From: Anthracocystis setariae
Lineage: Eukaryota > Basidiomycota > Ustilaginomycetes > Ustilaginales > Ustilaginaceae
Reading direction: 5' to 3'
DNA: 64,000 nucleotides
NCBI GenBank assembly: GCA_928724745.1
Contig: CAKMXJ010000010.1
Span: 372,001 to 436,000 of the forward strand
Under the pieces are notes generated by a model. That model did no database searches and had not been told where the DNA came from. It worked only from the letters and a program-made list of their open reading frames with translations. This document shows positions 12,360 through 62,340 of the stretch, one piece after another. Positions within the stretch are counted from its first letter, which is position 1. Each line of letters opens with the position of its first letter. Both the position numbers and the translations under genes were made by a program.

Positions 12360-12598
12360 TGTTAAGAATTGTCTCGAGTCAAAGAATAAAATCCCACAAA
12401 ATATGTTAGTTCACGATAGTTTCCCCGATCCACATTTTCGATATGCGATATGCGACATGCGATATGCACCAGCGACTTCACTACAATATGCGGTATGCTA
12501 CAGCACAGACGTCGCAACCTCAATTTTGTATATAAGTTGGTCAGATTCACGTATTTTAGCAGCCGAAATTTTAGTTAGTTTCTCATTTATTTTTCACA
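12360..12598 (+). repeat. 5' LTR of outer copia element
   Basis: 239 bp, TG...CA. The U3 part contains a tandem of the heptamer-like unit GATATGC/GACATGC (about 12420-12447) and a TATATAAG box at about 12529-12536, so transcription should start some 30 bp later. The sequence matches 27520-27758 base for base in my reading. Confidence 0.93.
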
Positions 12599-12614
12599 GG
12601 TTATGAGCCCAAGC
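12599..12614 (+). other. primer-binding site, half-tRNA (iMet anticodon arm) type
   Basis: GGTTATGAGCCC follows the LTR without a gap. It is complementary to the anticodon stem-loop GGGCTCATAACC of eukaryotic initiator tRNA-Met, the arrangement known for Drosophila copia and yeast Ty5. The ATG inside it opens only an 11-codon frame; the gag start is downstream at 12695. Confidence 0.8.
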
Positions 12615-12694
12615 TACTCCTCTGCAAAAGCTAAGTAAAAGAAAGAGATACGACATCAGACCAACAAACATTAACCAAGTAACAAGATAACACA

Positions 12695-15080
12695 ATGGAA
12701 AAAGAGAGTGGACTCCTCGGCATTCCCAAGCTCAAGTCGTTGGACGACTACTTCGCTTGGAAGGAAGACTTCACTGCAGTAATGATGTCGAAAGGTAAAG
12801 TGTACATGTGCATCACGCAGAGTATGGATAAACTAAGTAAGAATTCCGCTAAATCGAAGGAAGAATGGGACGAAGCAGCCATGAAGGCAAAAGGTATGAT
12901 ACTATACGCAATTGGTCAGGACTACAGACACCTGGTGAAGTCACTAGACTCCGCACACGAAATGTGGGAGCGACTTCGCGAACATTTTGAAGAAAGGCTG
13001 AGCCTAAGGCTCGTAATACTAAGAAGTCAGTTAAACACAATCAAGCAAGAAGACAAGGAAAGTGTCGATTCATTCGCATCAAGAATCGCCAAAATATGCG
13101 AACAATTAGACCTAGTCGGAGACAAGATGGACATCGAACGGCGCATGCTAGCGCTACTAACCGGACTTCGCCCAGAATACAACCAATGGAAAGCAATGAT
13201 ACAACACGAAAACGACACATACAAGAAATTCATGAAAAGAGAATTTCAATTTCAGGACGAAAATGGAAAATTACACAAGGTCACTCAAACAATTGACGAA
13301 GTCAACGAGTTGGAAAGGTACAACGACGCTCTGAGGTCGCTCAGAGCACGAGAAGAAGAACTACTTCGAGAACAAGCGACGCGCTCAAACACCAGGTCGG
13401 AAATGGCGATGTCAGTGGGACCCCAACAAGTAGGCCCACGACAACACAACAACTACGCCGTTCGTACATGCTACAAATGTGGAAAACCAGGCCACATCCA
13501 GGCAGTGTGTGGACTCAGATGCACAAAGTGTGGGCGTCTAGGACATCACACTGAACACTGCAGGAAAGGTGCTATGATGTCGAAACAGAGACCCGGGACC
13601 AAGACCACGGAATCAGCTCACGTGGCTTCCACACAATTCGGCGAAGAAAACAATCAAGAAACGGACGTGTTGAACACTGCAGACCCTGCAGCCGCATACA
13701 ATCTCCACTTCGCAAGTACAGCTCAAGTGATTGCCGATGACATCGGTAATCACAAATCCCTCCTCGCTGACCGAAGTCACATCAGAGATGAAGGATGGGT
13801 CCTCGATTCAGGGGCATCGTCACACATGACGAACAAGAAGGAGTTCTTCCACACGTTGACGAGGAAAGGAGAAAATTTACGAATTAGGACGGCGACAGGC
13901 CAGGAAGTTAAGGTCGAAGGAACGGGAAAAGTGGAATTCGTACCAACCATAGACGGCAGACAGGGTGACGTCGTAACACTTGATGAAGTGCTCTACGCTC
14001 CAGAACTGTCGGCAAACTTGATTTCGCTTGCAAACCTAATCAAATCAACAAAGATTAACTTCGACACAGGACGAAAGGATATAGCTGCCGAAATCAGCTC
14101 AAATGGAAAGAAAATACTACAATGTAGATACGAAGGAAACATGATGGTGTTGCAAGGACACACTATCAAACGCGAAGTCGCCAACCTCACAAATATCAAA
14201 GACACGGACATCGAAGCCTGGCACAGGCGGCTTGGTCACGCCAACACAAAATCAATTAAAGAAGCGATCGAGACAGGGACCGGCAGAAGAATCCCAAACA
14301 AGACTGCCATAAGAATCCAGTGCGACGTATGCGAGGTGGGAAAACACACGCGAAGTCCATTTGACAGATCAAACTCGAAGTCAACCAGACCCTTGGAGAT
14401 GGTTCACTCCGACGTCATGGGTCCATACGAAGAAGACCTAAAAGGTAACAAATATGTCCTCACCTTCGTTGACGACTACTCAAGGCATGTCACTGTCATA
14501 CCAATGAAGTGGAAGGACCAAGTCACCCTGTTCTTCCAAGTCTACCACAAATACATGACTACGATGACGGGGCAAAAGGTAGCATTCCTTCGCAGTGACA
14601 ACGGAGGGGAGTACATCAACGATAGGATGTCGGAATTTCTAACCGAAAATGGTATACAGCATAGGCGTACAGCGCCATACACGCCACAGCAAAACGGTGT
14701 CGCTGAAAGGATGAATCGAACCATTATGGACATGGTCCGATGCATGCTCTATGAGTCAGGATTACCCACGCGATTTTGGACTCATGCGGCAATGCATGCA
14801 GGACACATTCGAAATCGCATACCCAACGATTGGACTGGCGCTGCGACAACACCACAAGAAATGTTCCTTGGAGATAAGGCTCAAAAGGATATCGAAACGA
14901 TTCGACCATTCGGATGCACAGCCTATGTACACATCCAGAGGGCCGAACAAGGACCAGGTTCAAAACTCCAACCAAGGAGCAGAAAAATGATACACCTAGG
15001 CTCAAGCAAGGAACACAAAGCGTATGACGTTATCGACTTCAACCTAGTCGACGTAAAAGTAAGCAGGGACGTCACCTTCG
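12695..15080 (+). pseudogene. outer copia gag-pol, 5' part (gag, protease, integrase)
   Basis: First part of the polyprotein, interrupted at codon 796 by the 1,113-bp insert. Visible in order: a copia-type Gag (UBN2-like, about 1-230), two CCHC zinc knuckles (CYKCGKPGHIQAVC and CTKCGRLGHHTEHC), the aspartic protease site VLDSGASSHM, the GAG-pre-integrase H...H...C..C zinc site (HRRLGHANTK to CDVCEVGKH), and the integrase core with HSDVMGPY, FVDDYSRH and RSDNGGEY. Beyond 15080 the open frame continues into the inserted element until a stop near 15253, but that tail is not part of the protein. The ATG at 12695 begins an A-rich-leader polyprotein; codon use is clearly more A-rich than in host genes. 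Confidence 0.9.
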
Positions 15081-16198
15081 TGTCAGCGGTCGGGCGCCTG
15101 GTAAATAGGCCGATCTTGTTTCGAGAACGGTGCGGTCCTGAGGGGTTGGGCCGCCGAGTTTGGGATACGCGCCTGGGCAACTGGGTAGTACGAGGTGGGT
15201 TGCGCAGATACGTCGGCGGTCCGATGAGGACGACTGGGCCGCACTCGACTTGACGGCGGTGGAGAGTGGGCTTCTCGACCGCGTTCGACCTATTACCGAC
15301 TGACGCTGTTGGCGCTCCGTTCAGCGGCAGCACGGCGTACTCGGTATTACGGCGTGATAGCCTAGTGTCTCGCGAGCGCTCTTGACAAGACAGAAGGCGT
15401 GTTGATTGGTTAGGTGGTCACTGGACGTGATCACCAAGCTGTTAGAGAGACGGCTAAGAGCCTGCCGTCTCGGTGTCAGCGTGTAAGCAGCGTTTACGCG
15501 CTGCGGTGTCGGTACACGTACCGACGAGGACTAGCTGTTCTCCGACTTGAACGGAGGCACGCGAGGAAGCTGCAATGCTACTGTATTGCAACTTACTAAA
15601 CTAGTTACTGGAATGATCGTGAAGACGTCGTTAAGAATAGATACTGAGCTGAAGACTGTGTTTGTAAGAAGTAGAGTGGATGAGGAGCTCATCCACTACG
15701 AGCCAGATGAGGAGGCCTTAAGTATGACAGCTCCAAGCCCCTATGGCAAGGCCGTTCCAGCGCTAGCCTATTGTCTAGCTGCACGGCCTGCGTGTGCGCA
15801 TGTACTGACCGTGGTACAAGTATCTGCTCACCTCCAAGCCTCTGAGAGCGCTTGAGATGGTGTCCCTCGACTACTGATCGCCTCGAGATGACGTTGTCGC
15901 GATCCGGCGTCTCTGCGCTGTCGAACGGCCGCAATCCGATCGCTATGGACGAAAACGGCTGAAAGAGACTCATTGAGCCGCATTCACTCCGAGGGCGGCC
16001 GAAAAGCGTGTTTTCCACCGCTTCAACTTTGTCGCCCGTGAGTAGCGCCACTGCTAAACTCGGCGCACTGCTGGCCACGTGCCTCCCCTCGCCCGAATGC
16101 GAGGGCGGTTGACCGTAGCCCTCTTAACCGCGCTGGAACCGAAGGCGGTCGGGAAACCAGTTTTCCGCCGCCTCGGCATCGCTGCCTGTGACACTTCG
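15076..16198. mobile_element. 1,113-bp TG...CA insertion in pol (solo LTR or non-autonomous element)
   Basis: The insert proper is 15081-16193, flanked by CTTCG duplications at 15076-15080 and 16194-16198. It begins TGTCAGCGG and ends CTGTGACA, with TGTCA/TGACA inverted termini. Removing it plus one CTTCG makes the two gag-pol frames continuous. It has no credible coding capacity, and is GC-rich with repeated GCGGTCG-like words, unlike the A-rich copia sequence around it. The 5-bp TSD and TG...CA ends fit a solo LTR (perhaps gypsy-type) or a terminal-repeat retroelement in miniature; which one cannot be decided here. Confidence 0.85.
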
Positions 16199-17955
16199 TT
16201 GAAAGTGAGTTTCCCGCCAAGAAAAACCATACATTCCGGCCAAACCAAGTAAACGTGGACGAAAACCCACAAGTAAGCAATGAATCGATCATAACGAACG
16301 AAGTCACAGACCCAGAAAACGAAGGAGAAGTGGAAATTCAAGAAGTGGACGGAGTGGACGAAGTCATATATGCAAATTTGACGACACAGATCGACTTCGA
16401 CCAGATGCCAAGGAAGAGTCTTGACCCAATTAGCCTCGAAGACGCACAATCAAGGACGGACTGGCCAAGATGGAAAGAAGCAATGGATAAGGAACTAGCC
16501 AGCCACAAGGAAAACGAGACCTGGGAAGTCTGTGCCAAACCAGCTAACGATGGCCACGTTGTCGACTGCAAGTGGGTTTACAAGCTCAAGCTGAACCCGG
16601 ATGGATCTCTTGACAAGTATAAGGCAAGGCTTGTTGCCAGGGGATTCACACAACGGGAAGGAATCGATTACGAGGAAACATTTGCCCCAGTACTCAAGTT
16701 CTCGACGTTAAGAATCCTAATTGCACTGACAACCTCACTGGACCTGAAAATGGAACAGATGGACGTTGTCACAGCATTCCTAAATGGGATTATTACCGAA
16801 GACATTTACATGAAACCGCCGCCAGGATACTGGAACGGCAAGACATTAAAGCTAAAGAAGGCACTCTACGGCCTTAAGCAAGCAGGAAGAAAATGGTACG
16901 AGAGGCTTGACGCGAGCCTCAGGGAAATGGGATTCACAAGAATTGAAAGTGACTTTGGGGTGTACAAACTGGGAACATTGTCGAAGTCACTATGCATCAT
17001 CGCGGTCTATGTTGACGACATCGTCATCGTTACGAGGTCACAAGATGACATGGACACCTACAAGAAGGAACTCACCAAGCAATTTAAGATGACTGAAGGA
17101 GGCAAGCTCAAGTATATACTCGGACTAGAAGTCACATGGGGGCTAAACGAAACCAAACTCAGTCAATCGGCATACATCAAGCGATTGGTCGGAAAATTCC
17201 TAAGGGAGGATGAAAAGGGTGCGACAACACCACTTCCGACAAAAGAAGAAAAGCCCGATGTCACCGCACTCGACGAAAACGAACACAAGAAATACAGGAT
17301 GATTGTCGGATCACTACTGTACGCGGCCACAGGCACAAGACCCGACATAAGCTACGCCACTGGGCGACTTAGTAAGGAACTTCAAAACCCCACGAAGACG
17401 TCTATGAAGTGTGCCATACATTTGCTACGTTATCTAAAATGCACGCAAAACATTGGAATCCACTTCTATAAAGGAAGTGCGACACCAGACGTGCTGGAAG
17501 GCTACAGTGACGCTGACTTCGCTGGCGACACAGACGATAGGAAGTCCACAACCGGTGTAGTAACCGTTGTATACGGATCTCCGATAAACTGGCTCTCAAA
17601 GAAACAAGGATTAGTTGCCGACTCGACAACCGTAGCCGAATACATTGCCATAACCGAATCTGTCAAAGATATCATATGGACGCGTGCCCTGCTAGCGGAG
17701 CTTGGACTTCGACAATATGAATCAACTAAGATTCACTGCGATAACACTGCAGCTAGGCAACTTGCTGCAGATCCGAAATTTCATGCACGAACTAAGCATA
17801 TTGACGTGCGATTCCATTTCATTAGGGAACACGTCGGGAATGGCGATGTAAAAGTGGTACCGGTGACAACGCTACAACAAAGGGCAGACTGCCTCACAAA
17901 GTCACTCGGGCCAACGAAAATCGAGGAAGGCCGACGCATGCTCAACATGCACTAA
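16199..17955 (+). pseudogene. outer copia gag-pol, 3' part (reverse transcriptase, RNase H)
   Basis: In frame with 12695-15080 once the insert is removed, giving a polyprotein of about 1,380 codons. It starts in the integrase C-terminal linker. The reverse transcriptase shows WVYKLKLNPDGSLDKYKARLVARG, FAPVLKFSTLR, MDVVTAFLNG and the catalytic YVDDIVIV. RNase H shows GYSDADFAGDTDDRKSTTGVV, ADSTTVAEYIA and CDNTAARQLA. No stop or frameshift was seen within it, so the only damage is the insertion; a separate internal start (GTG at 16255) has no support. Confidence 0.9.
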
Positions 17956-18676
17956 AACTCAAAATAAAATTATACGGTCGGCGCCACATGTGAAGTAAAG
18001 TGGGCCAAGGGTACACTCAAGGTTCACAAAACCAAGAATAGGAGTGACGTCGTGGCAAAGGTGGGGGAACAAAGCATAATGAAGACACCGAAGTGATCCG
18101 AAATAAACTTCATTCGGATGCACCAAGGAAAAGGAACGAAAAGAAAATTAGAGATCCCGAAAGGGAAAGTTAAATTTGGTGGGACGTTCAAAATTACCGT
18201 CCCGAACCGTCACCGAACGTGACTTCGGATATCAAGTACAAGGAAAATACTACGACTTCGTCGACCGAAATCGCCGGAGGTCAAAGGGAATACGATTGAT
18301 TAGTGGTCCGATGCCTCAACCATGAAGACAAGCACGCACAAAGCGTTAAGATTGCGCAGAACGATAACGGCGCAAAGGGGATAGAGGGCACCGAAATCAG
18401 ACCGTACGGAGGTGCGCAGATATGGCGACATCGACAGGCAACTCAGCAGCCTAACTCAAGTATTCGCTACGGCTGCACAGCGAAAACGGTGCGAAATGGT
18501 AAAGACAAGATGATTTCTCAAGCAAGCGTATAGCAAAATAGGGGGAGCTACGAAGTAGGGGGAGAAAGTTATATATAGGATCGCCGACATCGACGAAGAG
18601 GAGGAAGTTCAACCATCCGACAACACTCAGACCCTCATACACACACATACACACACTCCTCTCTACACCACTCATC
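17956..18676 (+). other. outer element spacer between pol and accessory gene
   Basis: Non-coding 720 bp. It contains two purine tracts with GGGGGAG (18540-18546 and about 18559-18564) resembling the terminal polypurine tract at 27509-27519. A TATATATA run at 18570-18577 and a CA/CT-rich leader ending ACCACTCATC follow, immediately before the ATG at 18677. It looks like a private promoter and leader for the accessory gene. Confidence 0.55.
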
Positions 18677-18938
18677 ATGGCGACTATTTGCCCTACTCAC
18701 ATTCGATTCGAGAGCGACAGTAGCAGTGGTAGTGACTCTGATGGGAGCGCTACAAGTTCGGTGATCCAGAAGCGTATGATGGAGATGGTATGCGATGACG
18801 AAGAAGGAAGCGAAGAAGGAGGGTCCGACGTCGCGGACAGTGGAGAGGAGGACTCGGACGATGGTCAGGAGGGGGACAACGAGGGCGGCGAAGAAGAGGA
18901 GGAGGAAGTCGAGTTGGAGCCGGAGGCTGAGGATGGGA
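18677..18938 (+). pseudogene. outer element accessory gene, 5' part (acidic domain)
   Basis: The first 87 codons plus one base of an accessory gene located between pol and the 3' LTR, split by insertion of the second copia element. The encoded N-terminal part is extremely acidic and Ser/Gly-rich (runs of Asp/Glu from about residue 40 to the break), reminiscent of an acidic activation or histone-binding region. The remainder is at 26836-27404, and the phase is continuous across the single TSD copy. Confidence 0.75.
18934..18938. repeat. target-site duplication, inner copia element (left)
   Basis: TGGGA here and at 26831-26835 directly flank the 800-bp LTRs of the nested element. Confidence 0.92.
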
Positions 18939-19738
18939 TGTTGGAACCTAGAGTTCCGCATACCGTCTCACACTTAGAACATTTCACCCTTCGACCATAA
19001 ACCCGACGTCGGGATTTGCAATCCGCATGCGGGACTTAGTCTCCCAACGAGATTCAATTAATCACGACGCGACTTATTGCAAATCAAGGAATTCCCACAC
19101 ACACGCCCAAGACACACGGTCCAAGACAAGAGGTTCGAAACATCGTCTCAAAAACCCGCGGTCGGGTTTTATGATTCCGGATGCGTTCTCAAGCAGAGAC
19201 CACGGATTCTCCCTATACGACCAGAAGGCGCATCCCACAGCGAAAGATCGGTACAGACGACCAAGTAAGTGGGTTTACGCTATAGGTATCATAGCATTCA
19301 CCAAAGAACGTTCAGTGCGAACGCAAGGGAGCATCATCGCGAACACAACATGTATATAAACACCTCCTCGTCATGACTCGTTAGTGTCTTTGGAATACAT
19401 CGAATCTTTCCCCCATTTACTCTTACCATACCTTCTCTCCGACAACTCGTCGAGTAGTCATCAAAGTACTTATAGTATTTATCGTTCAAGCTTCCTACCT
19501 CTGCGAAGACGACGTGAGCGTACGAAACCCGACGTGGATCTTTGGAATAACAACAAAGATAACGTTCGGACATCCTAAGACTTCCGGGATTCTAACAAAC
19601 CCGCAGTTTGTCAGAACCCGACGTCGGGATTGATCACCCGACGCCTACTTCCGTAAGTCACGCTCAAAAGCCATAATTAACTACTTATTCTTGGCTTTGC
19701 CGTAAGGCCGTTATTCCTCATCTGCCATTATTTTCACA
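18939..19738 (+). repeat. 5' LTR of inner copia element
   Basis: 800 bp, TG...CA. It carries two exact copies of the CCCGACGTCGGG palindrome (19000-19013 and 19615-19628), a variant at 19153-19168, and a TATATAAA box at about 19353-19360. The short open frames inside the LTR recur in the other LTR only because the LTRs are duplicates. Confidence 0.95.
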
Positions 19739-19752
19739 GGTTATGAGCCCAA
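19739..19752 (+). other. primer-binding site overlapping the gag start codon
   Basis: GGTTATGAGCCC directly follows the LTR and is complementary to the initiator tRNA-Met anticodon arm. The ATG within it (19743) is also the first codon of the 1,435-codon gag-pol frame, so primer site and start codon coincide. Confidence 0.8.
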
Positions 19753-22700
19753 AGCCTGCTGGAAACTCGAACGATATATACTTGAATACTCGATCCCGCT
19801 CCCGAGTCGATTCGATCACCGGAGAACCCGAAAACACCGAAAGAAATTTACCGAACCCGACGTCGGGTTTCGAATACACCGAAGAAATCATGCAATCCAT
19901 CGATGGGGTCCCGCATAATTCTCCCGGATTGCCGAAATTGACACAGGCACGCGACTATTACCAATGGAAGGACCAATGCATCGACATTCTCATGCAAAAG
20001 GGTGCTCGAATCTATGGAATTATTAAGGGGACTCTACCCCGGCCTGAAGCCTCTGACCCCAAATACGGAGAGTGGATTAACGCCAACTTTACCGCTTGCG
20101 GCATGCTACGAAGCAGTCTCTCAAGTGAAATCAAGCACACCATTGCGGATCTTGAAGACGCGCACACAATCTGGAAAACCCTCGAAGAACGGTTCGCTAA
20201 AGCCATGAAATGGCAACTCGAGGAAATGGAGACGGAGCTCAACAGTCTCAAGCAAGATAGACGAACCATCGACGGATTCGTCAGCCGAATCACCGAACTG
20301 TCAGACCAGCTGACCATGGCAGGCGTTACAATTAGCTTCAACAAGAAGTACAGCGTACTAATGAAGGGCCTCCGCAAGGAATATGATAACATCCGAGCAC
20401 AAATCGAGGAGACCTACCGAGCACGCCGAGAGACAAGCGAAATGATCGTCCGAAGGGGCGACAACGAAGTCGAGACCCTGGTTGTCGAGAGTGCCGTCAT
20501 TAACGAGAAGGTCGAGCTCGACAACATCGTTACTCGCCTGCGAAGCGAGGAATTGCGCCTCGGTATCAACGTTCAGGGCATACACCAACGAACCCGGGTC
20601 GGGTCATCGGCATACTATGCCGGACAAGAAAACAAACGGAAGGGTCAACGAAACCCGAAGCGAAACCCCAAGACGAAGCCGAAAACGCCAATCGAGAAGA
20701 TCACTTGCTTCAATTGTCAAGAAAAGGGGCACTATGCGAACAAATGCCCGAAACCCAAGAACCCGACGTCGGGTTCTCAACCGAACACCAAAACTGGTGA
20801 ACCCGGGCGTGATAACGTCTACTCCGCCAGCGAGTTCACACATCCGCGGTCAATGATGTGGTTAATGGACTCGGGTGCCAGTCGACACATCTGTTGTAAC
20901 AAGACTCTATTTTGGGATCTTAAACTCGGTGTGACAATGCGACCCATCTGGGTAGCAAACGAAGTTCCGGTCAAAATCGAAGGACTCGGCACAGTAGACC
21001 TCGAAGTCAACATCGGACGAGGAAAAACAAACCAAATTACATTATCGAATGTGGCATACATCCCATCCTTCGGCGTCAACCTCCTGTCCACAGGTGTAAT
21101 GAGGAAGAAGGTGGAAATTGTAACAAACGACCGCGAGACAGTCGCTCGCACGACGGATGGCAGAATCACATGCAGAGGTGTCCACATTGGACCCCTCACG
21201 TATGTCGATCAAGTCGGCACCGACTTTGCCGGAATGGCGGCCGAACACGAGGCCAACACCACGAATTGGCACAAACGCCTTGGTCATCCTGGCCAAGCAC
21301 GATTGGAAGAGATTGCGAAGGTCGTTCCCCAAGTAACTCTCAATCCACGCACACCCGCAAAGTGTGAGACGTGCCAAATCGGAAAATCACACAAACAGCC
21401 GTTTTCTCGAAACCCGACGTCGGGTTCCACAAAACCCCTGGAACTTGTGCATACCGACGTCGTGGGTCCAATGCCCGACGAAACTCCTCAAGGCCACCGC
21501 TACGCTGTCACATTCATCGACGATTTCTCAAGATTCACCGTCGCTTTCCTACTCACGAGGAAGAGTGAGGTGTATGGTCACTTCCTGGAATACAAAACTA
21601 TGATGGAGAAGCAAACCGGCCAATCGATCAAAAGAATCAGGTCGGACAACGGAGGCGAATACACGAGTAACGAACTTGCAGAGCTACTTCGGGGAAATGG
21701 GATCATCCACGAACACACCGCTCCATACACGCCAGAACAGAACGGGGTTGCAGAACGAATGAATCGCACCCTGTTCGACCTAGCTCGCTGCATGATGATC
21801 CAATCATCCTCACCGTATCATATGTGGGGAGACGCTTTCCTCCACGCAGTCTACCTCAATAACCGATTCCCAACGAAGGGCGCCGGGATGAAGATCCCGA
21901 CCCAATTGTTGCGATCCATCTCACCTGACTTCTCCCTCGCTCGAACGTTTGGATGTGCTGCATGGGCACACGTTCCAGAGGAGAGAAGAGATAAATTGGA
22001 GCCCCGCGCACTAGCATGTGTTTACGTCGGCATCGCTGCAGGAACGAAGGCCTTCAAGTTATATAACGTGGCCGCAGATCGATATATTACAACGGTCCAC
22101 GCAACATTCGACAAAGGGACTTTCCCCTTCTCGTGTGACACCGAAAGTTCAGTGCGGTTCGCGAAACCCGACGTCGGGTTCGCGAACCCGTCCAGAATTG
22201 ACACAACAACGAAGGAAATTGATATTCCCCCTCAGCCAAGTCATCAAAACGCCGCACCTCAACAAAATACATCGGAAGACCCAAATAGCTGGCCCTACCT
22301 TACCCCAGAAGAGAGAGCGGCAGGGATCCAGACTCCACCTGGTTCACCACCAGGCTCACCACGCCTGGACGCGCTCGCAGCCCTCGAAGAAACCGACGCG
22401 GTCGAAAACCCAACGTTGGGATTAGATGATTCGGACCCAATCGGGCTACTCGACGACGAACCACGAACAATCACTCAGGCTTTCCGAAGACCCGACTGGG
22501 AATTATGGAAACAGGCCGTGAACAAGGAACTTGCGTCGCACAAGGACAACAACACCTGGAATCTTGTGACCCCTCCTAAGGACGCAAACGTCATCGGAAG
22601 TCGATGGGTCTTCAAGATCAAGCGAAAAAGCGACGGAACCATCGACAAGTACAAAGCTCGCTTGGTAGCACAGGGATTCGCACAGAAACACGGCATAGAC

Positions 22701-24050
22701 TACGACGAAACCTTCGCACCCGTTGTGAAGCTAGCGACACTCCGTCTGCTCATGATCCTGAGCCTACAAATCGGATTGACTATCTACCAAATGGACGTCG
22801 AGACCGCTTACCTCAATGGCGAAATCGACAAGGATATATACATGCGACCGCCACCTCGAGAACCCGATGCAGATCCTCACTCTCCGGGCCTGCTTTGCAA
22901 ACTAAACAAGTCGCTCTACGGCCTCAAACAAGCTGGCCGTACTTGGTACCAAAAGGCGGATTCTACTTTACGGGGAATGGGTTTTAAGCGCAGTAACCAT
23001 GATTCCGCGCTCTACATCAAAAACCCGACGTCGGGATCCGAAACCCACCCGCTCGTCCTCACACTCTACGTGGATGACATACTCATCTTCGCCCGCTCTA
23101 AACCCCTCGCCGAAACCGTAATGAACGACCTCAGGAAGCACTTCAAGATGACGGGTGGAGAACAGCTTGACTACATTCTAGGCATTCAAGTGAAACAATC
23201 GCCGGACTCCATACACTTGTCCCAAACCAGCTACATCCGACGGCTCCTTCTGACTTACGGCCTGGAGTCAGCCAACATCGTACACACTCCGCTCAACCCG
23301 AGCGCCAACTTGGCAGAAGGTGACCCCCTCTCTTCAGCAGAACATTCGAAGTATAGAAGCATCGTTGGTCAAATCCTTTACATTGCAACGTGCACGCGGC
23401 CAGACATCAGTTACGCTGTACAAAGACTCAGCCGCGAACTTGCAAACCCGCATTCTAATGCCATGGTTCAGGCAAAGCACCTGCTACGTTACCTCAAGGG
23501 AACAGAAACCCACGGTCTGGAATATAGACCTGCCGTCGGGTTTTCAATTCACGACGTAAATCTTGATTTTGGGTCCCTATTTCAAACATTCACCGACGCA
23601 GATCACGCGGGGGACACACTGACTTCGAGATCAACGTCGGGAATTGTTAATACGGTCAACACTATGCCATACAGCTGGATTTCTAAGCTACAGTCCATCA
23701 TCACGGACTCTACAACATACGCCGAATACGTAGCTATGGCTGAAGCAGCAAAGGAAATTACATGGTGCCGCTGGCTGGTCGAAGAACTTGGCCTCAAAGT
23801 CAAGAACCCGACGCAACTCATGGTGGATAACCGCGCGGCCATCGAACTCGCCAAGGAACCCAAGTTTCACAACCGAACCAAGCACTTTCGCCTCAAGTAT
23901 CACATCACTCGATCATACCAAGCAGAAGGATTACTGATCGTAAAACCAGTCTCGACAACGAACCAACTGGCAGACATTCTAACTAAGGCATTGGAAAAGA
24001 ACAAGGTTCAAGCCAACCGCGAGAACCTTCACATACTTCCCACGAACTAA
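19743..24050 (+). CDS. inner copia gag-pol polyprotein
   Basis: An intact 1,435-residue polyprotein. Gag (about 50-260) is followed by one CCHC knuckle (CFNCQEKGHYANKC), the protease site LMDSGASRHI, and the integrase zinc site (HKRLGHPGQ to CETCQIGKSH). The integrase core has HTDVVGP, FIDDFSRFT and RSDNGGEY. The reverse transcriptase has WVFKIKRKSDGTIDKYKARL, MDVETAYLNG and YVDDILIF, and RNase H has TDADHAGDTLTSRSTSG and VDNRAAIELA. The peptide NPTSG(S/F), or KPDVGF in another frame, recurs at several points because the AACCCGACGTCGGG palindrome is embedded in the coding DNA. The start at 19743 lies in the PBS; the next in-frame ATG (19890) is an alternative. No frameshift or stop was seen. 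Confidence 0.92.
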   Translation: MSPKPAGNSNDIYLNTRSRSRVDSITGEPENTERNLPNPTSGFEYTEEIMQSIDGVPHNSPGLPKLTQARDYYQWKDQCIDILMQKGARIYGIIKGTLPRPEASDPKYGEWINANFTACGMLRSSLSSEIKHTIADLEDAHTIWKTLEERFAKAMKWQLEEMETELNSLKQDRRTIDGFVSRITELSDQLTMAGVTISFNKKYSVLMKGLRKEYDNIRAQIEETYRARRETSEMIVRRGDNEVETLVVESAVINEKVELDNIVTRLRSEELRLGINVQGIHQRTRVGSSAYYAGQENKRKGQRNPKRNPKTKPKTPIEKITCFNCQEKGHYANKCPKPKNPTSGSQPNTKTGEPGRDNVYSASEFTHPRSMMWLMDSGASRHICCNKTLFWDLKLGVTMRPIWVANEVPVKIEGLGTVDLEVNIGRGKTNQITLSNVAYIPSFGVNLLSTGVMRKKVEIVTNDRETVARTTDGRITCRGVHIGPLTYVDQVGTDFAGMAAEHEANTTNWHKRLGHPGQARLEEIAKVVPQVTLNPRTPAKCETCQIGKSHKQPFSRNPTSGSTKPLELVHTDVVGPMPDETPQGHRYAVTFIDDFSRFTVAFLLTRKSEVYGHFLEYKTMMEKQTGQSIKRIRSDNGGEYTSNELAELLRGNGIIHEHTAPYTPEQNGVAERMNRTLFDLARCMMIQSSSPYHMWGDAFLHAVYLNNRFPTKGAGMKIPTQLLRSISPDFSLARTFGCAAWAHVPEERRDKLEPRALACVYVGIAAGTKAFKLYNVAADRYITTVHATFDKGTFPFSCDTESSVRFAKPDVGFANPSRIDTTTKEIDIPPQPSHQNAAPQQNTSEDPNSWPYLTPEERAAGIQTPPGSPPGSPRLDALAALEETDAVENPTLGLDDSDPIGLLDDEPRTITQAFRRPDWELWKQAVNKELASHKDNNTWNLVTPPKDANVIGSRWVFKIKRKSDGTIDKYKARLVAQGFAQKHGIDYDETFAPVVKLATLRLLMILSLQIGLTIYQMDVETAYLNGEIDKDIYMRPPPREPDADPHSPGLLCKLNKSLYGLKQAGRTWYQKADSTLRGMGFKRSNHDSALYIKNPTSGSETHPLVLTLYVDDILIFARSKPLAETVMNDLRKHFKMTGGEQLDYILGIQVKQSPDSIHLSQTSYIRRLLLTYGLESANIVHTPLNPSANLAEGDPLSSAEHSKYRSIVGQILYIATCTRPDISYAVQRLSRELANPHSNAMVQAKHLLRYLKGTETHGLEYRPAVGFSIHDVNLDFGSLFQTFTDADHAGDTLTSRSTSGIVNTVNTMPYSWISKLQSIITDSTTYAEYVAMAEAAKEITWCRWLVEELGLKVKNPTQLMVDNRAAIELAKEPKFHNRTKHFRLKYHITRSYQAEGLLIVKPVSTTNQLADILTKALEKNKVQANRENLHILPTN

Positions 24051-24279
24051 GAAAACCCGACGACGGGTTTCCTTTTCCACAGATTAATCATCAAGATCCG
24101 TACATGTACAAATTCGACCCGACGCGCTTTCCCTGAAAAACATCAAAAACAACACAAAACATCCGAACAAGACAAACACCGAAAAATAACAATAAAAGCC
24201 AACAAAATAATTGGACCCTGCATGAACACGCGACCCAAGATACAGCAACACCCCTCGGATCACAGAACCCGACGTCGGG
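19854..24279. repeat. dispersed palindrome array AACCCGACGTCGGG(TT/AT)
   Basis: Exact AACCCGACGTCGGG copies inside the element body start at 19854, 20760, 21411, 22165, 23022 and 24266. LTR copies start at 19000, 19615, 26092 and 26707. Variants are at 19153 and 26245 (AACCCGCGGTCGGGTT), 22407 (AACCCAACGTTGGG), and 24054 (AACCCGACGACGGGTT). Half-copies occur near 19526, 20591, 23531 and 24118. The core contains CCG-N4-CGG. I saw none of these in the outer element or in host DNA of the window. Confidence 0.9.
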
Positions 24280-24624
24280 ATTTCATGTCCAGCACGAAAC
24301 CTCGAAACTCAAGACCGGATAACCAAAAATTACAAATAAATTACCGCTAACACCACAGTCACTTATATGTCACATTGCGCAATCACATCCACCGAGATGA
24401 AACGCGGCGCATCCGACAACACTCTCTATCGGGTCATAAGACCCGACATCTGGCCCTCACTACATGCTGCGCCAACTGCGGAACAGAACGAACAAAGCGT
24501 TACCAAACAAAGGATTGGGATAGAAGCGCGGATCGAAGATACAACCCTCAGCACGCTCTCCCATACACTCCGCACTCATACCTCTCTCACCACCACCACA
24601 GACAACACCACTACTCATCAAACG
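24051..24624 (+). other. inner element spacer between pol and accessory gene
   Basis: An A/C-rich spacer with two palindrome copies (variant 24054-24069, exact 24266-24279) and a GGGTC-ATAA-GACCC inverted repeat near 24432. It ends in a CA/CT-rich leader (CCACCACCACAGACAACACC, then ACTACTCATCAAACG) before the ATG at 24625. The leader resembles the one before the outer element's accessory gene. The frame is open further upstream to 24367, so a longer N terminus is possible. Confidence 0.5.
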
Positions 24625-25905
24625 ATGGGGAAACGACTTTCCCAGGCCAAGAAGAACGCTCTTGCCAAGGCAAACGAAGCCAGGCGAAGGAGAGCCGCCA
24701 ATGCCGCCAACGCGGCCAACGAAAATGTTTCCCCCGTCGCCAGTGTCGCCATCGATATCGACAACTCCACCAACAACATCGATGCCAACGGACCTACAAC
24801 GACGACCTCCACCCTCGCCTCTCCCCCAGATGAACAAGAAGAAGCGATGGAAGTGGACGAGCAACCAACACCGCCAACAGGTGAGGATTCACACCAGCAA
24901 CACAGCCTGCCCACTGTCAACAACGACATGGTAATGGACGACCCTCCTCAAGACCCCGAACTAGCTGGCCCTTGCAACCCCAACGCCAATCGAGAAGGCG
25001 ATGGCGACCACCCTTCATCGTCCGCGCCATGCGGGGCCGGCCGCACTCTTCGCCTCCGCAGTAGACCGCTCCCTGCGTTGAGGCCATCCACCTCAGTCTC
25101 CCGAGAGGAAGCACCACCAGAAGAAAGACCACTCTTCCTTCACTCGGACGATCCCCTCGCCGACGGCGACTTCGAGATGGATCCAAGCTTTAATCAAGGG
25201 TTCACGAGCGATGGGACGGAACGAAGCATCACCACCCGCAGGAACAGCTCAACAGTCACCTCCCGAGCAATCGAGCTCGTGGAGTCCACATCTTCCCTTC
25301 CCCGCCGTAGGATTGTAGGCGCTGCCGCCGCCGCCGTAGCAACTTCCGAGGCCAACCTCCATGCCGACGAAGTACAACCCGCTGGCGGATCGACGGAACA
25401 CCCCCTCCCCGCGCACCTGGCATGGTCTGGGGCGATCATCCCGGGGGTTCCACCTTCAAAACAGAAACGGTTCGTAGTCCCAGCTGGAGTTGTGCTGAAT
25501 TCTCGACGGCACTTCACTCCACTGGACCAAGAACCTCATCCAGCCCTCAAGATCGTCGAACCCGGCTGCCAGGAGTGCCGTCTTATCGGAGTACACTGTT
25601 CTTTCGGCGCCGGAGTGAATCATCAAGGCAAAAGACGAGATCCCGACCGCGGGTCTTGCGATCACTGTATGGTGATCTCGAAGCCTTGCCGAGGACTAGG
25701 ATACGAAGGGAAGAGGACCAAGAAGCTCATGGTCATTGACAAACTCCGAGGAAAACTCGACGAAGCTAGGGAAATTTGCATCGATACAATAGTCGCATCA
25801 AGAACCGGGAAACCACTTCCAAAGAAGTGGGATCCCTCCTACTTCATCAAACTCGTAGGACAGGCCGAAGAACTGATCAAGAAACGCGAGGCTCCAGGCC
25901 CTTGA
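24625..25905 (+). CDS. inner element accessory protein with Zn2Cys6-like cysteine cluster
   Basis: A 426-residue protein (from ATG 24625) encoded between pol and the 3' LTR. The N terminus is basic (MGKRLSQAKKNALAKANEARRRR), followed by a long low-complexity Thr/Pro/Asn/Glu-rich region. The C-terminal third holds CQECRLIGVHC, a 19-residue basic spacer and CDHCMVISKPC (from residue 315), that is C-x2-C-x6-C-x19-C-x2-C-x6-C. The basic RTKKLMVIDKLRGKLDEA helix follows. The six-cysteine layout resembles fungal Zn2Cys6 DNA-binding domains, but the central loop is longer than usual. It is not an Env or other retroviral protein. A DNA-binding role in the nucleus is inferred, not shown. An alternative start at 24367 in the same frame would add 86 residues. 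Confidence 0.75.
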   Translation: MGKRLSQAKKNALAKANEARRRRAANAANAANENVSPVASVAIDIDNSTNNIDANGPTTTTSTLASPPDEQEEAMEVDEQPTPPTGEDSHQQHSLPTVNNDMVMDDPPQDPELAGPCNPNANREGDGDHPSSSAPCGAGRTLRLRSRPLPALRPSTSVSREEAPPEERPLFLHSDDPLADGDFEMDPSFNQGFTSDGTERSITTRRNSSTVTSRAIELVESTSSLPRRRIVGAAAAAVATSEANLHADEVQPAGGSTEHPLPAHLAWSGAIIPGVPPSKQKRFVVPAGVVLNSRRHFTPLDQEPHPALKIVEPGCQECRLIGVHCSFGAGVNHQGKRRDPDRGSCDHCMVISKPCRGLGYEGKRTKKLMVIDKLRGKLDEAREICIDTIVASRTGKPLPKKWDPSYFIKLVGQAEELIKKREAPGP

Positions 25906-26030
25906 AACAGATTCGCTCAAGCGTCTGGATCTAATGCTTCGGGTCCTTAAGACCCGCCGTGAATCCCATCGTCCTGTCATGTGAATGATTGATTGTGAAT
26001 GAAGTGTGTGAAGTGTTCAACGCGGGGGAC

Positions 26031-26830
26031 TGTTGGAACCTAGAGTTCCCCATACCGTCTCACACTTAGAACATTTCACCCTTCGACCATAAACCCGACG
26101 TCGGGATTTGCAATCCGCATGCGGGACTTAGTCTCCCAACGAGATTCAATTAATCACGACGCGACTTATTGCAAATCAAGGAATTCCCACACACACGCCC
26201 AAGACACACGGTCCAAGACAAGAGGTTCGAAACATCGTCTCAAAAACCCGCGGTCGGGTTTTATGATTCCGGATGCGTTCTCAAGCAGAGACCACGGATT
26301 CTCCCTATACGACCAGAAGGCGCATCCCACAGCGAAAGATCGGTACAGACGACCAAGTAAGTGGGTTTACGCTATAGGTATCATAGCATTCACCAAAGAA
26401 CGTTCAGTGCGAACGCAAGGGAGCATCATCGCGAACACAACATGTATATAAACACCTCCTCGTCATGACTCGTTAGTGTCTTTGGAATACATCGAATCTT
26501 TCCCCCATTTACTCTTACCATACCTTCTCTCCGACAACTCGTCGAGTAGTCATCAAAGTACTTATAGTATTTATCGTTCAAGCTTCCTACCTCTGCGAAG
26601 ACGACGTGAGCGTACGAAACCCGACGTGGATCTTTGGAATAACAACAAAGATAACGTTCGGACATCCTAAGACTTCCGGGATTCTAACAAACCCGCAGTT
26701 TGTCAGAACCCGACGTCGGGATTGATCACCCGACGCCTACTTCCGTAAGTCACGCTCAAAAGCCATAATTAACTACTTATTCTTGGCTTTGCCGTAAGGC
26801 CGTTATTCCTCATCTGCCATTATTTTCACA
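26031..26830 (+). repeat. 3' LTR of inner copia element
   Basis: 800 bp, matching 18939-19738 except C at 26050 for G at 18958. It carries palindrome copies at 26092-26105 and 26707-26720. A purine tract CGCGGGGGAC lies just before it. Confidence 0.95.
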
Positions 26831-26835
26831 TGGGA

Positions 26836-27404
26836 ATGACGGAGGACAGGACCCGGAAGAAAAGTGCCAAACTTGTAGAGTAGGAAGGCACCGATGTCAG
26901 CATCCGGCAAAGGTGGTCAAGCGGGGAAGTCGTAGCACTAAGTGTTTTCGTTGCTACAAGAAGAAGAGACCCTGCTCGCTAGACACCAATGTCCGTTCCC
27001 TGAACTCACGAAGAACTCAACTCGACAAGGCTCGCCGTCAGGGAGAGCTTCGGGCGGCAAGGAACGACTTCGAATCAACGATGCGAACGCTGCGCGCCGA
27101 AGACACTGCCCTCAATGCTACCATCGAGAATCTCCGGACCACTGGAGAGAGGACAATGCAGATGCTCGAGGACTACATTGGTTTTGACTATCAACTCCGA
27201 CTACTAATCCAACAACTCAGCGTACATTGGTTCGAGGGAAATAACGAAATGCTCGGGCAATACTTCGACTTTCTCGCTAGATACGATCTCTGCGAACCCC
27301 TGGACGACGAAGACTTGGAGCGCGAGCATGACCCCGAAGTCGTAGTCACGCGAGTCATGGAGAATCCGAATGCGTTCCCAGATACCAGCGACAACGAAGA
27401 ATAA
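26836..27404 (+). pseudogene. outer element accessory gene, 3' part (Zn2Cys6-like cluster and coiled coil)
   Basis: Continues the frame of 18677-18938, giving a 276-residue product. Just after the break come CQTCRVGRHRC, a 15-residue basic spacer and CFRCYKKKRPC (residues about 98-134): C-x2-C-x6-C-x15-C-x2-C-x6-C. The first half also satisfies the Zn2Cys6 preference for basic residues after the second cysteine (C-R-x2-R-x2-C). A heptad-like Leu/Arg/Glu-rich helix (about 145-220) follows and could mediate dimerisation, as in many zinc-cluster regulators. The C terminus is acidic. The host-like alternative, an internal GTG start at 26913, would remove half the cluster and is unlikely. Confidence 0.75.
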
Positions 27405-27508
27405 GTACAAAAACAGTTTCAAATCCCGTTCCCAGAATCCTTCCCCTGTTACGAAGTCCGCCACTCAAGTTTCAAGCGATCATATCGATGTCGCAACACT
27501 CTTTGCCT

Positions 27509-27519
27509 CGAAGGGGGAG
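27509..27519 (+). other. polypurine tract of outer copia element
   Basis: CGAAGGGGGAG directly precedes the 3' LTR, the expected place for plus-strand priming. Confidence 0.8.
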
Positions 27520-27758
27520 TGTTAAGAATTGTCTCGAGTCAAAGAATAAAATCCCACAAAATATGTTAGTTCACGATAGTTTCCCCGATCCACATTTTCG
27601 ATATGCGATATGCGACATGCGATATGCACCAGCGACTTCACTACAATATGCGGTATGCTACAGCACAGACGTCGCAACCTCAATTTTGTATATAAGTTGG
27701 TCAGATTCACGTATTTTAGCAGCCGAAATTTTAGTTAGTTTCTCATTTATTTTTCACA
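27520..27758 (+). repeat. 3' LTR of outer copia element
   Basis: 239 bp, reads identical to 12360-12598, and is followed by the GGCTC duplication at 27759-27763. Confidence 0.94.
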
Positions 27759-54660: not shown

Positions 54661-55615
54661 CCTCGCAAACTCGATGTTATGAAGGACAAAGCATTGACGG
54701 TCACCCTGGTGAAGGTCAAAAGCTTCGCAGACATGACGGTGAAGAGACAAAAGTAGGTTGGAATTACAAGGCGGTCGCGGCCAGCCTGGTTGCTTCAAGC
54801 AGTAGGATGCTGTCTAGGGCGAGGCTAGCCGTCCAGTAGTTTGTGCAGACTTGTGACGCTAGTTCGCAATGCACCATGCGACCCGATCCGAGAATCACCT
54901 TGCATGTGGGCCGATGAAGGTTTAGTTCGCCGAAGTGCGCGGACGACCACGGACTCGAGGCGCTCAGACGCAATTCCGAAAGATGAGGGTGAACTCATGT
55001 GAGGGACGGTGGGAATTGAGGCTTCTTAGCGAGGCTAGACGAACTCATTACGCTCAAGCGAAGAGGTGGATCCTATCGAGAGGATCCAAATTGTGGAAGA
55101 AGTGTGCTACACTGTGCTGTACAGTACTGTAATCCCTGCGTGGAGCCGAAAACAAGAAACGAGGCGAGTCCAGATGGGTCGCATGCATTCATTGACTGCC
55201 CTTCCTCAAGCGAGATCGTCTATGATGCTGAAAGAGAAACGGAGAAAATCGCTCAGCCCAGCACTACTTTGTCGGTTCGAGATGCTTTTCACGGGAGTCG
55301 CGACCAGAAGAATTGGTTCGGAGATAGTACGGCGTGAGGACTTTATGCTAGGGACGCACGACTAGCCTTGGGCTGTTGCAGGTACACGTTGGGTGCCCAT
55401 GTGGACGGGTACAGTTGGAACAAATGGCAGAACAGAGCGTGGGAGCGTGCCAACCGCCGTTGTGCTTGGGCATCGGCCATCTCGACCAAATCAAATAGGG
55501 GCCATCCTCTGCATCGTTGAATCCGACGGAAATTTGATCTGAGCGACATCCAGCTCGCACGCTCCACACATGATGATAATCAGCACCATCTTCCACGGGG
55601 ATCCTGGCCTCTCTG
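54661..55615. other. interval without a supported gene
   Basis: Short frames on both strands only, for example 55343-55596 on the minus strand, none with a recognisable domain. It contains a GCTGTACAGTACTGTA run near 55118. Confidence 0.4.
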
Positions 55616-59661: not shown

Positions 59662-62340
59662 GGGTGTTGTTGTGAACAACACTTTTTTTTTGGATTTCAA
59701 CATACCAGAAGTCTGGCCATACAGATTATGAAGAGGTAGTGATTTGTGGCAAGGTTGATTTGTCAAAGCTGCGTGTTAGACTTGGCTTGTTGTACAGGGA
59801 AAGACGGATATTGGTGTACAATTTCCGATAAAATCGACCCTCCCTTTATTGCCAATCTATCGACTCGATTTGCACCCAATCGCCTTTAAGCTTTTTATAA
59901 TTTAACAGTTCCAAACACCTTGGACTCAAAAATCGCGACTTTGTCGGGTTGCACAGGTTGGTAAGATTCTACAGAAATCATGTAAAAATTCAAGATTCGC
60001 TGTGGACTGGACGCGCTGACGAGCTGGATTGGAGAAGGCGACTGAGGATAGGGTTGGGGGGTTTGGCGGGGCGTTGAGAGCGAGCCAACGAGAATCGGAA
60101 GAAAAGTTGCCTGTGACCGGCTTCTGCGATTACCGAAAGTATGACAAAGACGGTTCCAAGTTACGACGATGACAAAACTCAGACGATGACAAAACTCAGA
60201 CGATTGCAGATATTATCAGGTTTCATGTACAGTGTGGTCTTGACTGCGCGTAGGATATGAGATCGAGTGGGTGGGGTTGATTCTTGGTCTTGGAGCGGAA
60301 GGTCACAAGGCATGTTGCCACGAGTCCGGGGCCATGTAGCCGAGCGGAACGTTCTCGATCCATGCGAGATCAGGGTTCAGGAACGAAGTGCTGTATTGCT
60401 GGCCCGGTTTCAGTAGAGTGTCGTTATATTTTGCGCGTTAGGCGCTCGGATGGCCGGCGCGCGGGGGCTTGCTAGACATCGATACGGACAGGAGCTGGGG
60501 TTGTGCTTATTGATTCGCATGGAGTAATTCGACGGGGATTGGACGATGAATTGCGGGGGAACCAACTACAGCACAACACGATTGCGTCGTAGAATACGTT
60601 GGAGCTCAAGCTGTGCGGTGAAACAGGGATGCGGACGATATTGCATGGCTCGCTCAGATTCGCTTCCGCCGGGCTGCATGTGGAGACTCCGCAAGAATCA
60701 GTGAATGCATACAGTAGCTACAAGTGTGTGCGCGTTTCAATCTCAGCTGCTCTGGCCCGCGCCTCCCCCACGCGCTGGTGCGTAGTAACGAGGTTCTCTT
60801 TTCTGTAGACCGCTGCCTGTTTGGCTGCCAGCCGCGCCAAAATCCAGCGTTCGGCAAGAAAGCAAACGCAGCCGACCGGTCCAGCTTACAATTGTGCCGG
60901 TTTACGCATTTGTTTGGTTTAAGCGTATGCGGTGGGATCGCCCAACCATATTGATGTGTACTTCCGCCGCCTGCACTAGCCGACGGGTGGCAGTAACGCT
61001 GCCGCAGGACCGTTGCTGCTGTTCCGCTTGTCCTTGTACCGTTCAGATGCTGCTGCAAACAGCACCGAGTGTTGCACGGGTCGTCGTTGTCGCGGATGTC
61101 TCCGTGCACGTTCAAGGTAATTCGACTCCGCTCAGCATCAATTGCTTGCATGCCTCGTGGCCTCGACCAAGCACAGTGAGGAGAACTGGACGTAAGAGTA
61201 CAGTACAGTACAGTACAGTACAGTACTACAAGCTCCGTAGCAGAAAAAGTGAGCAAGCCCCGAATCGGCTCATTTCTTTGCTGCAACATGGGTACGCTTT
61301 TGACTGAGCAAGTGTCAGAGCTCTGTACTGCATGGCTGGGCTCTGATCAACTACGGTTCTGGACAAGGAGTCGTGGTGGCAAAATGCAAGAGTTGGAACG
61401 AGAGGGATTCGTGCTCAGCTGCTCGCAGTACTACAACACTCAGCTGGTTGACGCGGGTCATTTCTAGCACATTTTATTGATTTTCGCCGACCCCACGGTT
61501 TGCTTAGCTCCGACCATTGAAAATGGTTTGAATTTTGCCAAGGCATAACGCCGTATACAGTAGCTTGCGTCTGCGGTGCTGCCGATATGCGTGCGTGCGT
61601 GCGTGCCTGATCCGTCAAATTCTCCTTGTCAACTGCGCTGCTGGACCTCTTGTACTGTGCTGTACTGAACTGAACTGTGCAGTACGATAACCACATGCAC
61701 CTCCCCGACTAGTCCTGCGTCGCCAAAGTGCTCGAGTTCGAGATTTGCGAGAGCTTCTGCAGCTCGTCGTTTTGCAACTTCCACTGATTTCATCGTCTCT
61801 GTTTTTGGCTGTGCTCCTCGAATTTGTTCCAAGCCGTCCAACTCCCTCTCTGCTGCTTATCTGCGTGGCCCCGCAACCTCAATTACAGCAGAGCAGCTGC
61901 ACCAACTACCCCGCCCCCGCACGCGCAAAACGAGCTCCTCCGTTCTCGATCATGTCTTCCGGCGTGCTGCTCCGCTTCCACCTTGGTAAACTGTGCGGGG
62001 TCAGACTCGGTGTCATGCAACCGCAGAGTCACTTTTGCTCTGGAATTGTCAGCCTCATTCCAACCCAGCTGAGTCCGATGCATTGCCCCATCCTCCCTCC
62101 CAACAACCGCGCTTCCACTGCCCCGCACCAGCTGCCGTTCTAATCCGTAATGAGATCAGTATGAGGTGCGGGTGAAGCCACTTGCCTTGCAACCTAACCC
62201 ATATCTAAGAATCGCCTTGCATTCCAACTCTATCTCCAACCTGCCACTTACACAGTCCATGCATCAACACAGCATGTGTGCTCGCCTCGATCCTGTCTGT
62301 CTCTTGCCTCACATGAAACCTCTCCCTGCACCTCCCTCGA
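59662..62340. other. long interval without a supported gene
   Basis: About 2.7 kb with only short overlapping frames. It includes a direct 17-bp duplication (ACGATGACAAAACTCAG, 60166-60199), a CAGTA pentamer array at about 61197-61226, related CTGTACTG words near 61655-61680, and GCGT repeats near 61593. Pyrimidine-rich leader sequence of the MIP gene follows. Confidence 0.45.
61197..61226. repeat. CAGTA pentamer microsatellite
   Basis: Five uninterrupted CAGTA units flanked by partial units. Confidence 0.9.

Follow-up and report, generated by a model that had tools for sequence, protein, structure and literature searches.

The question raised by this locus is what a third gene does for a retrotransposon that already encodes gag and pol. 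Two nested copia elements, here called the inner and the outer element, lie within the 64,000-nucleotide stretch of the Anthracocystis setariae genome that was analyzed (the window; contig CAKMXJ010000010.1, positions 372,001 to 436,000 of the forward strand), and the insertion of the inner element has split a gene of the outer one. An earlier reading, made from the sequence only, had proposed that both elements carry, between pol and the 3' long terminal repeat (LTR), an accessory gene with a Zn2Cys6-like cysteine cluster. This placement was confirmed, and the gene recurs genome-wide. We consider the chances somewhat better than even that the elements represent a clade of fungal copia elements whose third gene encodes a nuclear, sequence-specific DNA-binding protein with a six-cysteine, two-zinc-like cluster, which binds sites of its own family, labels the element as self and sustains its expression.

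The genome searched comprised 21.5 Mb in 36 contigs. The inner protein matched at least 62 places, in identity groups of about 51–79% (fragments included), 31–42% and 33–37%, and the outer protein matched at least 12 places with identities of 79–100%; because both versions recur in this manner, the gene is beyond chance. Seven uninterrupted copies of the outer-type gene were found elsewhere, each a single frame of 276–282 residues, while an eighth copy (L028) is shortened by a stop. After three N-terminal pieces of genes already counted had been dropped, the 62 places became 59, and the final list holds 73 places (59 + 2 + 12), with two overlapping pieces on C8 counted as two. A reverse transcriptase (RT) domain lies upstream of 61 of these 73 places. 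Seen from the other side, the accessory gene lies downstream on the same strand within 4.5 kb in 58 of the 81 copia RT loci, nearly always at a distance of 1.25–2.14 kb. The sequence-only reading had named absence of the gene from other copies of the same families as grounds for abandoning it; in this genome the gene is present in other copies. Among the 23 copia RT loci with no accessory match are broken or nested copies (the outer element of the window is one), and about nine others have similar RT scores, by which they look like families devoid of the gene. Loci of copia RT near which no accessory gene was found include C5:879561, C8:350208, C5:122326, C7:718645, C2:483647, C5:235922, C28:1358094, C3:845622 and C21:193835. 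In g4, one of the families with the gene, 12 of the 14 loci fetched have a pair of LTRs about 716 bp long and 98.9–100% identical.

On re-reading, the inner protein has the layout C-x2-C-x6-C-x19-C-x2-C-x6-C and the outer protein C-x2-C-x6-C-x15-C-x2-C-x6-C, in agreement with the coordinates and spacings (15 in the outer and 19 in the inner protein) given before, and the acidic N terminus of the outer protein and the basic stretches described along with them are also present. None of the six cysteines varies among the seven aligned members, and the loops have 15–19 residues. The inner gene and the genes of families g2–g5 are related, and the inner, g2, g3, g4 and g5 proteins are alike around the cluster, with RF..P ahead of it and P.C..C at its start. 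As for the suggestion that the two window genes may be homologous, the CA/CT-rich leaders do precede both start codons, and the pairwise likeness of the inner and outer proteins is weak (expectation value, E, 0.007). The accessory gene is under purifying selection. The ratio of nonsynonymous to synonymous substitution rates is 0.23 in family g1 (65 of 66 pairs from 12 copies), 0.17 in the outer family (5 of 6 pairs from 4 copies) and 0.05 in g4 (likewise 5 of 6 pairs from 4 copies); three of the seven outer copies and one of the five g4 copies were left out of this calculation because the start word was not found. The accessory protein is more divergent than pol (31% versus 67% identity between inner and g2).

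Short DNA motifs are dispersed through the elements, with sites in the LTR, in the leader and inside gag-pol of the family to which they belong. Three families share a single layout, a 6-bp half-site followed by a 4-bp spacer and the inverted half-site, and differ in the letters:

Inner motif: AACCCG-N4-CGGGTT
g2 motif: CAYTCR-N4-YGARTG
g4 motif: YTACCG-N4-CGGTAR

The sequence-only reading was sound on the accessory gene and had missed these motifs. Exact matches to CCCGACGTCGGG number ten in the inner element and none in the remaining 56 kb of the window. Palindrome counts were compared with 20 shuffles each that preserved codons and dinucleotides, and they exceeded the null maximum for the inner family (AACCCGACGTCGGGTT, 14 versus 8), for g2 (CATTCAGTACTGAATG, 13 versus 6) and for g4 (TACCGACGTCGGTA, 17 versus 7). 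The damaged g1 copy L049 has the same core (8 versus 5), yet ties its null at 16 bp. Three of four host control windows fell within the null, and the fourth (56–63 kb) exceeded it (9 versus 5) owing to short tandem arrays. Short GTACAGTACTGTAC-like repeat arrays occur in host DNA at window positions 55108–55133 and 61197–61687. Self-trained profiles recovered 18 inner, 24 g2 and 42 g4 sites per approximately 8 kb (both LTRs counted), and 3, 17 and 7 sites, respectively, in a background of 48.5 kb; the 17 background sites make the weaker g2 sites uncertain. Exact k-mer maxima exceeded all of 100 shuffles at k of 7, 8 and 10 in the inner element and in L049, and at k of 7 only in the two g4 copies. 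The outer family appears to carry a motif of its own, CGAAGTC, on weaker evidence than the inner, g2 and g4 families: it occurs 18 times (10 on the plus and 8 on the minus strand), compared to a mean of 4.5 and a maximum of 10 in 1000 shuffles. CGAAGTC has no palindromic flank, and a palindrome search of the outer family found none.

The features of the two elements, with the motif sites of the inner one, are as follows:

12360–27758, plus strand: outer copia element, with identical 239-bp LTRs and the target duplication GGCTC
12360–12598, plus strand: outer 5' LTR, 239 bp, identical to the 3' LTR letter for letter
12695–15080, plus strand: outer gag-pol, first part (gag, integrase)
15081–16193, no strand assigned: insert foreign to the outer pol, 1113 bp, TGTCA...TGACA, duplication CTTCG
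16194–17955, plus strand: outer pol, second part (reverse transcriptase)
18677–18938, plus strand: outer accessory gene, first piece, encoding the acidic N terminus; the inner element interrupts the gene after it
18939–26830, plus strand: inner copia element, complete, 800-bp LTRs with one mismatch and the 5-bp target duplication TGGGA
18939–19738, plus strand: inner 5' LTR, with motif sites at 19000, 19153 and 19615 and a weak site at 19526
19743–24050, plus strand: inner gag-pol, with coding motif sites at 19854, 20760, 21411, 22165, 22407, 23022 and 23527
24054–24281, plus strand: interval between pol and the accessory gene of the inner element, with motif sites at 24054 and 24266
24625–25905, plus strand: inner accessory gene, the cysteine cluster being residues 315–355, with a weaker motif site at 25640
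26031–26830, plus strand: inner 3' LTR, with motif sites at 26092, 26245 and 26707 and a weak site at 26618
26831/26836–27404, plus strand: outer accessory gene, second piece, encoding the cysteine cluster and then the helix
27520–27758, plus strand: outer 3' LTR

The inner accessory gene starts with the ATG at 24625 and has its stop ending at 25905 (426 residues). Both elements belong to Ty1/copia, with LTR pairs, short target duplications and the Pfam domains Retrotran_gag_2, rve and RVT_2 in copia order.

Motif and gene occur together across the genome. There are 138 matches to CCCGACGTCGGG, compared to 4 for a reversed control, and 28 matches to the g2 pattern, compared to none for its control. 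The looser CCCGNNNNCGGG gave 554 versus 239 matches, and because it is this common in the control, half-sites alone are not confined to elements. Of the first 50 of the 138 inner-motif places, 42 are within 9 kb of one of 44 inner- or g2-type accessory places, as are 22 of the 28 g2-motif places, and the 9-kb zone around those 44 places covers at most 3.7% of the genome. Six of the eight other inner-type places among the first 50 adjoin a copia RT locus on C11.

In an alignment of pol (A2), inner and g2 sites were found at the same variable positions with different letters, as in FSRNPTSGSTKPLE versus FQHSVLSVDTPLQ, ENPTLGL versus EHSVSDV and IKNPTSGSET versus IKHSVPNVET. Three of the seven inner sites lie within one column of a g2 site, with a probability of 0.0005 under uniform placement and of 0.01 and 0.035 under two variable-codon nulls, and five of the seven lie within six columns (P 0.05). 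Coincidence within three columns was not significant under the variable-codon null (P 0.22), tolerant places in pol explain part of the coincidence, and between inner and g4 sites coincidence does not exceed chance. These observations raise the idea of private DNA address codes, for and against which we see the case as evenly balanced: each copia family would encode its own zinc-cluster protein and have the 16-bp site of that protein written throughout the element, including gag-pol, and codes would be switched wholesale while several pol sites stay put, as a means of self-recognition and anti-silencing independent of plant VANC.

The steps that we propose are these. A protein would be made from the 3' gene; a TATATA precedes the ATG of the outer accessory gene by 107 bp, and a TATA box of its own may fit separate production. 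The protein would then enter the nucleus and bind the sites of its own family, as a dimer in three families and perhaps as a monomer on the single 7-bp site in the outer family. Bound along the LTR and the body, it would mark the element as self and keep the family expressed, most likely by counteracting silencing by the host in the manner of plant VANC, and perhaps also by activating the LTR promoter. The anti-silencing step taken alone is tentative, and we hold it at a little less than even confidence. By analogy with VANC, sites along the whole body would fit a role in chromatin better than promoter activation alone. The genome encodes C5-methylase and Argonaute domains. In the broken or truncated copies L015, L016, L018, L020 and L030, 27–68% of the reference CpGs are present as TG or CA and gains are few, as compared to 3–18% in the other 20 copies compared (among them L028, which has one stop, and L049, whose pol is broken), with gains that are similar or larger in most of them. 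A CpG-directed process, either CpG methylation or a decay resembling repeat-induced point mutation, thus seems to act on dead copies. This decay alone does not show anti-silencing, because intact lineages renew themselves by transposition.

The closest described system is VANC of the Arabidopsis VANDAL transposons, which is likewise an extra element-encoded protein that is less conserved than the mobility protein, and which has a short family-specific motif repeated in its own element, with other motifs in related families (PMC5735166, PMC10398659). A motif enriched in its own element, as in the VANC systems, was found for the inner, g2 and g4 families and more weakly for the outer family. VANC differs in that it belongs to plant transposons of another kind, has its sites in non-coding tandem repeats and contains DUF1985/DUF287, whereas the present case is a copia LTR retrotransposon with a cysteine cluster and many single sites inside gag-pol. 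Pfam searches for the VANC domains DUF1985 and DUF287 gave no match up to an E of 5. Some fungal DNA transposons carry TET/JBP dioxygenases and are similarly mobile elements with a gene thought to evade methylation-based silencing; that case differs in being an enzyme of DNA transposons, with no sequence code in the abstract (PMC12730594), whereas a probable DNA-binding protein is encoded here. No description of a copia gene or motif of the present kind was among the entries listed by searches of an open-licence library, most subscription journals lying outside it, in line with the earlier remark that no copia lineage is known to carry a zinc-cluster gene. Plant LTR retrotransposons are said to include elements with additional open reading frames outside gag-pol, as is the case here; the library entry on them (PMC7264820) names no DNA-binding protein with sites to match scattered along the element. 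If the proposal is true, plant VANDALs are not alone in countering silencing with a DNA-binding protein that they encode themselves, and this capacity has also arisen in fungal LTR retrotransposons. Families that differ in their private motifs would, as the data suggest, tell self from the rest of the genome, and how elements escape CpG-type silencing in fungi would become testable. With protein and target both readable from the sequence in several families, the elements would form a natural data set on joint change of specificity, and CAYTCR and CGAAGTC are candidate new DNA-binding specificities.

Several results weigh against the proposal. The PF00172 (Zn_clus) profile stayed below its curated cut-off, with no match to the window proteins and a best E of 0.19, in three of the seven members, and a single-sequence structure model gave no confident fold for the cluster, with a predicted local distance difference test (pLDDT) score of about 41–57. 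Motif likeness does not track protein likeness, in that CCG-N4-CGG is common to inner and g4, whose proteins are 28% identical, whereas the inner and g2 motifs differ at 31%. Exact k-mer maxima of g2 stay inside the null, and site conservation within g4 gave no signal (P 0.22 and 0.87), the copies being too alike. CGAAGTC was picked on the same data that test it, the maximal 7-mer of the outer copy L048 ties its null (14 versus 14), and the motif has been lost from L030, an older decayed outer-type copy. No motif was recognised in g5 (L047), which was examined without a shuffle control. The motif reading covered copia families with an accessory gene, and the nine gene-less loci named above form a natural control for the motif hypothesis. 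Finally, the link between motif and protein is one of co-occurrence alone.

The alternative that survives best, although we regard it as unlikely, is that the protein does no more than activate transcription from its own LTR, with the body sites as by-products or in the service of an internal promoter. Two inner sites are located upstream of the LTR TATA (at positions 63 and 216, with the TATA at 416), the TATATA ahead of the outer gene counts in the same direction, and the acidic stretches look, by eye, like activation domains. A promoter activator would, however, need none of the sites outside the LTR, where 10 of the 14 distinct inner sites are found, spread over gag-pol, the leader and the accessory gene and occupying more than one frame. 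The co-occurrence of motif and protein would also be expected if a host protein, Gag or integrase bound the motifs and the accessory protein served another function, which we hold to be less likely still, since the motifs vary by family within one genome and stay with the family, as the protein does, and inverted half-sites with a fixed spacer suit a dimeric zinc-cluster protein.

The resemblance to the Zn2Cys6 regulators bears on a third alternative, in which a host regulator was captured and continues to control host genes. The CGG pairs recognised by Zn2Cys6 proteins may be inverted, direct or everted, with Leu3 using the everted kind, and AlcR binds as a monomer (PMC5559640). The accessory proteins share the C-x2-C-x6-C doublet with such regulators, CCG-N4-CGG is an everted CGG pair, and in the outer protein the cluster is followed by a long helix. 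CGG-type half-sites co-occur with the gene in two families (CCG-N4-CGG) and are, by this co-occurrence, putative targets. Unlike in the regulators, the loop is longer (15, 16 or 19), the Pfam score is sub-threshold and the cluster is far from the N terminus. Loops in the classical Zn2Cys6 domain are shorter. The term Zn2Cys6-like used earlier holds for the cysteine layout and not for the Zn_clus profile score. The closest solved structure by profile was AlcR, itself a Zn2Cys6 protein, at a non-significant E of 1.3. The helix was modeled with confidence from the single outer sequence and has a heptad-like pattern (P 0.02), which backs the coiled coil predicted downstream of the cluster; such a pattern was not found in the tail of the inner protein (P 0.81). 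Zn_clus matches 78 places in the genome, so that the model works there, and none of them is within 12 kb of any accessory place. These 78 domains and the similar cysteine layout could speak for capture from the host, but the score of the accessory proteins never exceeds the cut-off and target-like sites are concentrated near elements, which makes this alternative quite improbable. No relatives of the inner protein (E 0.001) or of alignment A1 (E 0.01) were found among public proteins, with 8000 candidates scored for each, and fungal coverage in that search is uncertain, so the absence says little.

A second nucleocapsid-like or env-like structural protein would suit a position where some retroelements keep env, and the cysteines could bind nucleic acid non-specifically; nevertheless, this is highly improbable, as the CxxC-x6-C doublet is unlike the CCHC knuckle matched in gag and there is no env-like Pfam match.

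The slightest chance of all is given to RNA hairpins through which genomic RNA would be packaged or would dimerise. AACCCG-N4-CGGGTT could make a 6-bp stem with a tetraloop and one site is altered on both sides (CCCAACGTTGGG), but the outer motif is non-palindromic and on both strands, and a stem would make mirrored positions co-vary, whereas their pairing equals independence in three families (71 versus 70.9, 82 versus 80.6 and 88 versus 89.9). The palindromes have the behavior of DNA sites rather than of RNA hairpins. Identity in the half-site cores is 0.967, as compared to 0.829 for local stretches with a maximum of 0.933 in 2000 (7 sites, 14 related copies; the six gag-pol sites from 19854 to 23022 were excluded, no fetched copy being aligned over them). 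Spacer letters vary between copies, while the spacer length is fixed at 4 bp, and the coding sites lie in more than one reading frame. Exact sites of the inner element at 615, 1760, 2411 and 3165 from the first LTR site correspond to exact sites at 614, 1759, 2410 and 3164 in the C6 copy and at 613, 1757, 2408 and 3162 in the C11 copy.

Some minor observations concern the architecture of the elements. In the g3 locus L051, which had first appeared GC-rich and motif-poor, copia pol was not found upstream of the accessory gene. A GC-rich stretch with a 1712-residue frame on the minus strand lies there upstream of 5646, directly ahead of a g2-like accessory gene whose own frame is still open, and the 1712-residue frame is probably another element. 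The 1113-bp insert in the outer pol (15081–16193) is probably a solo LTR, and stretches resembling this repeat also occur inside L018, L020, L031, L032 and L049. The body of both elements opens with GGTTATGAGCCCAA (window positions 12599–12612 and 19739–19752), which is probably where a part of the initiator tRNA binds as primer, in the same way as in Drosophila copia.

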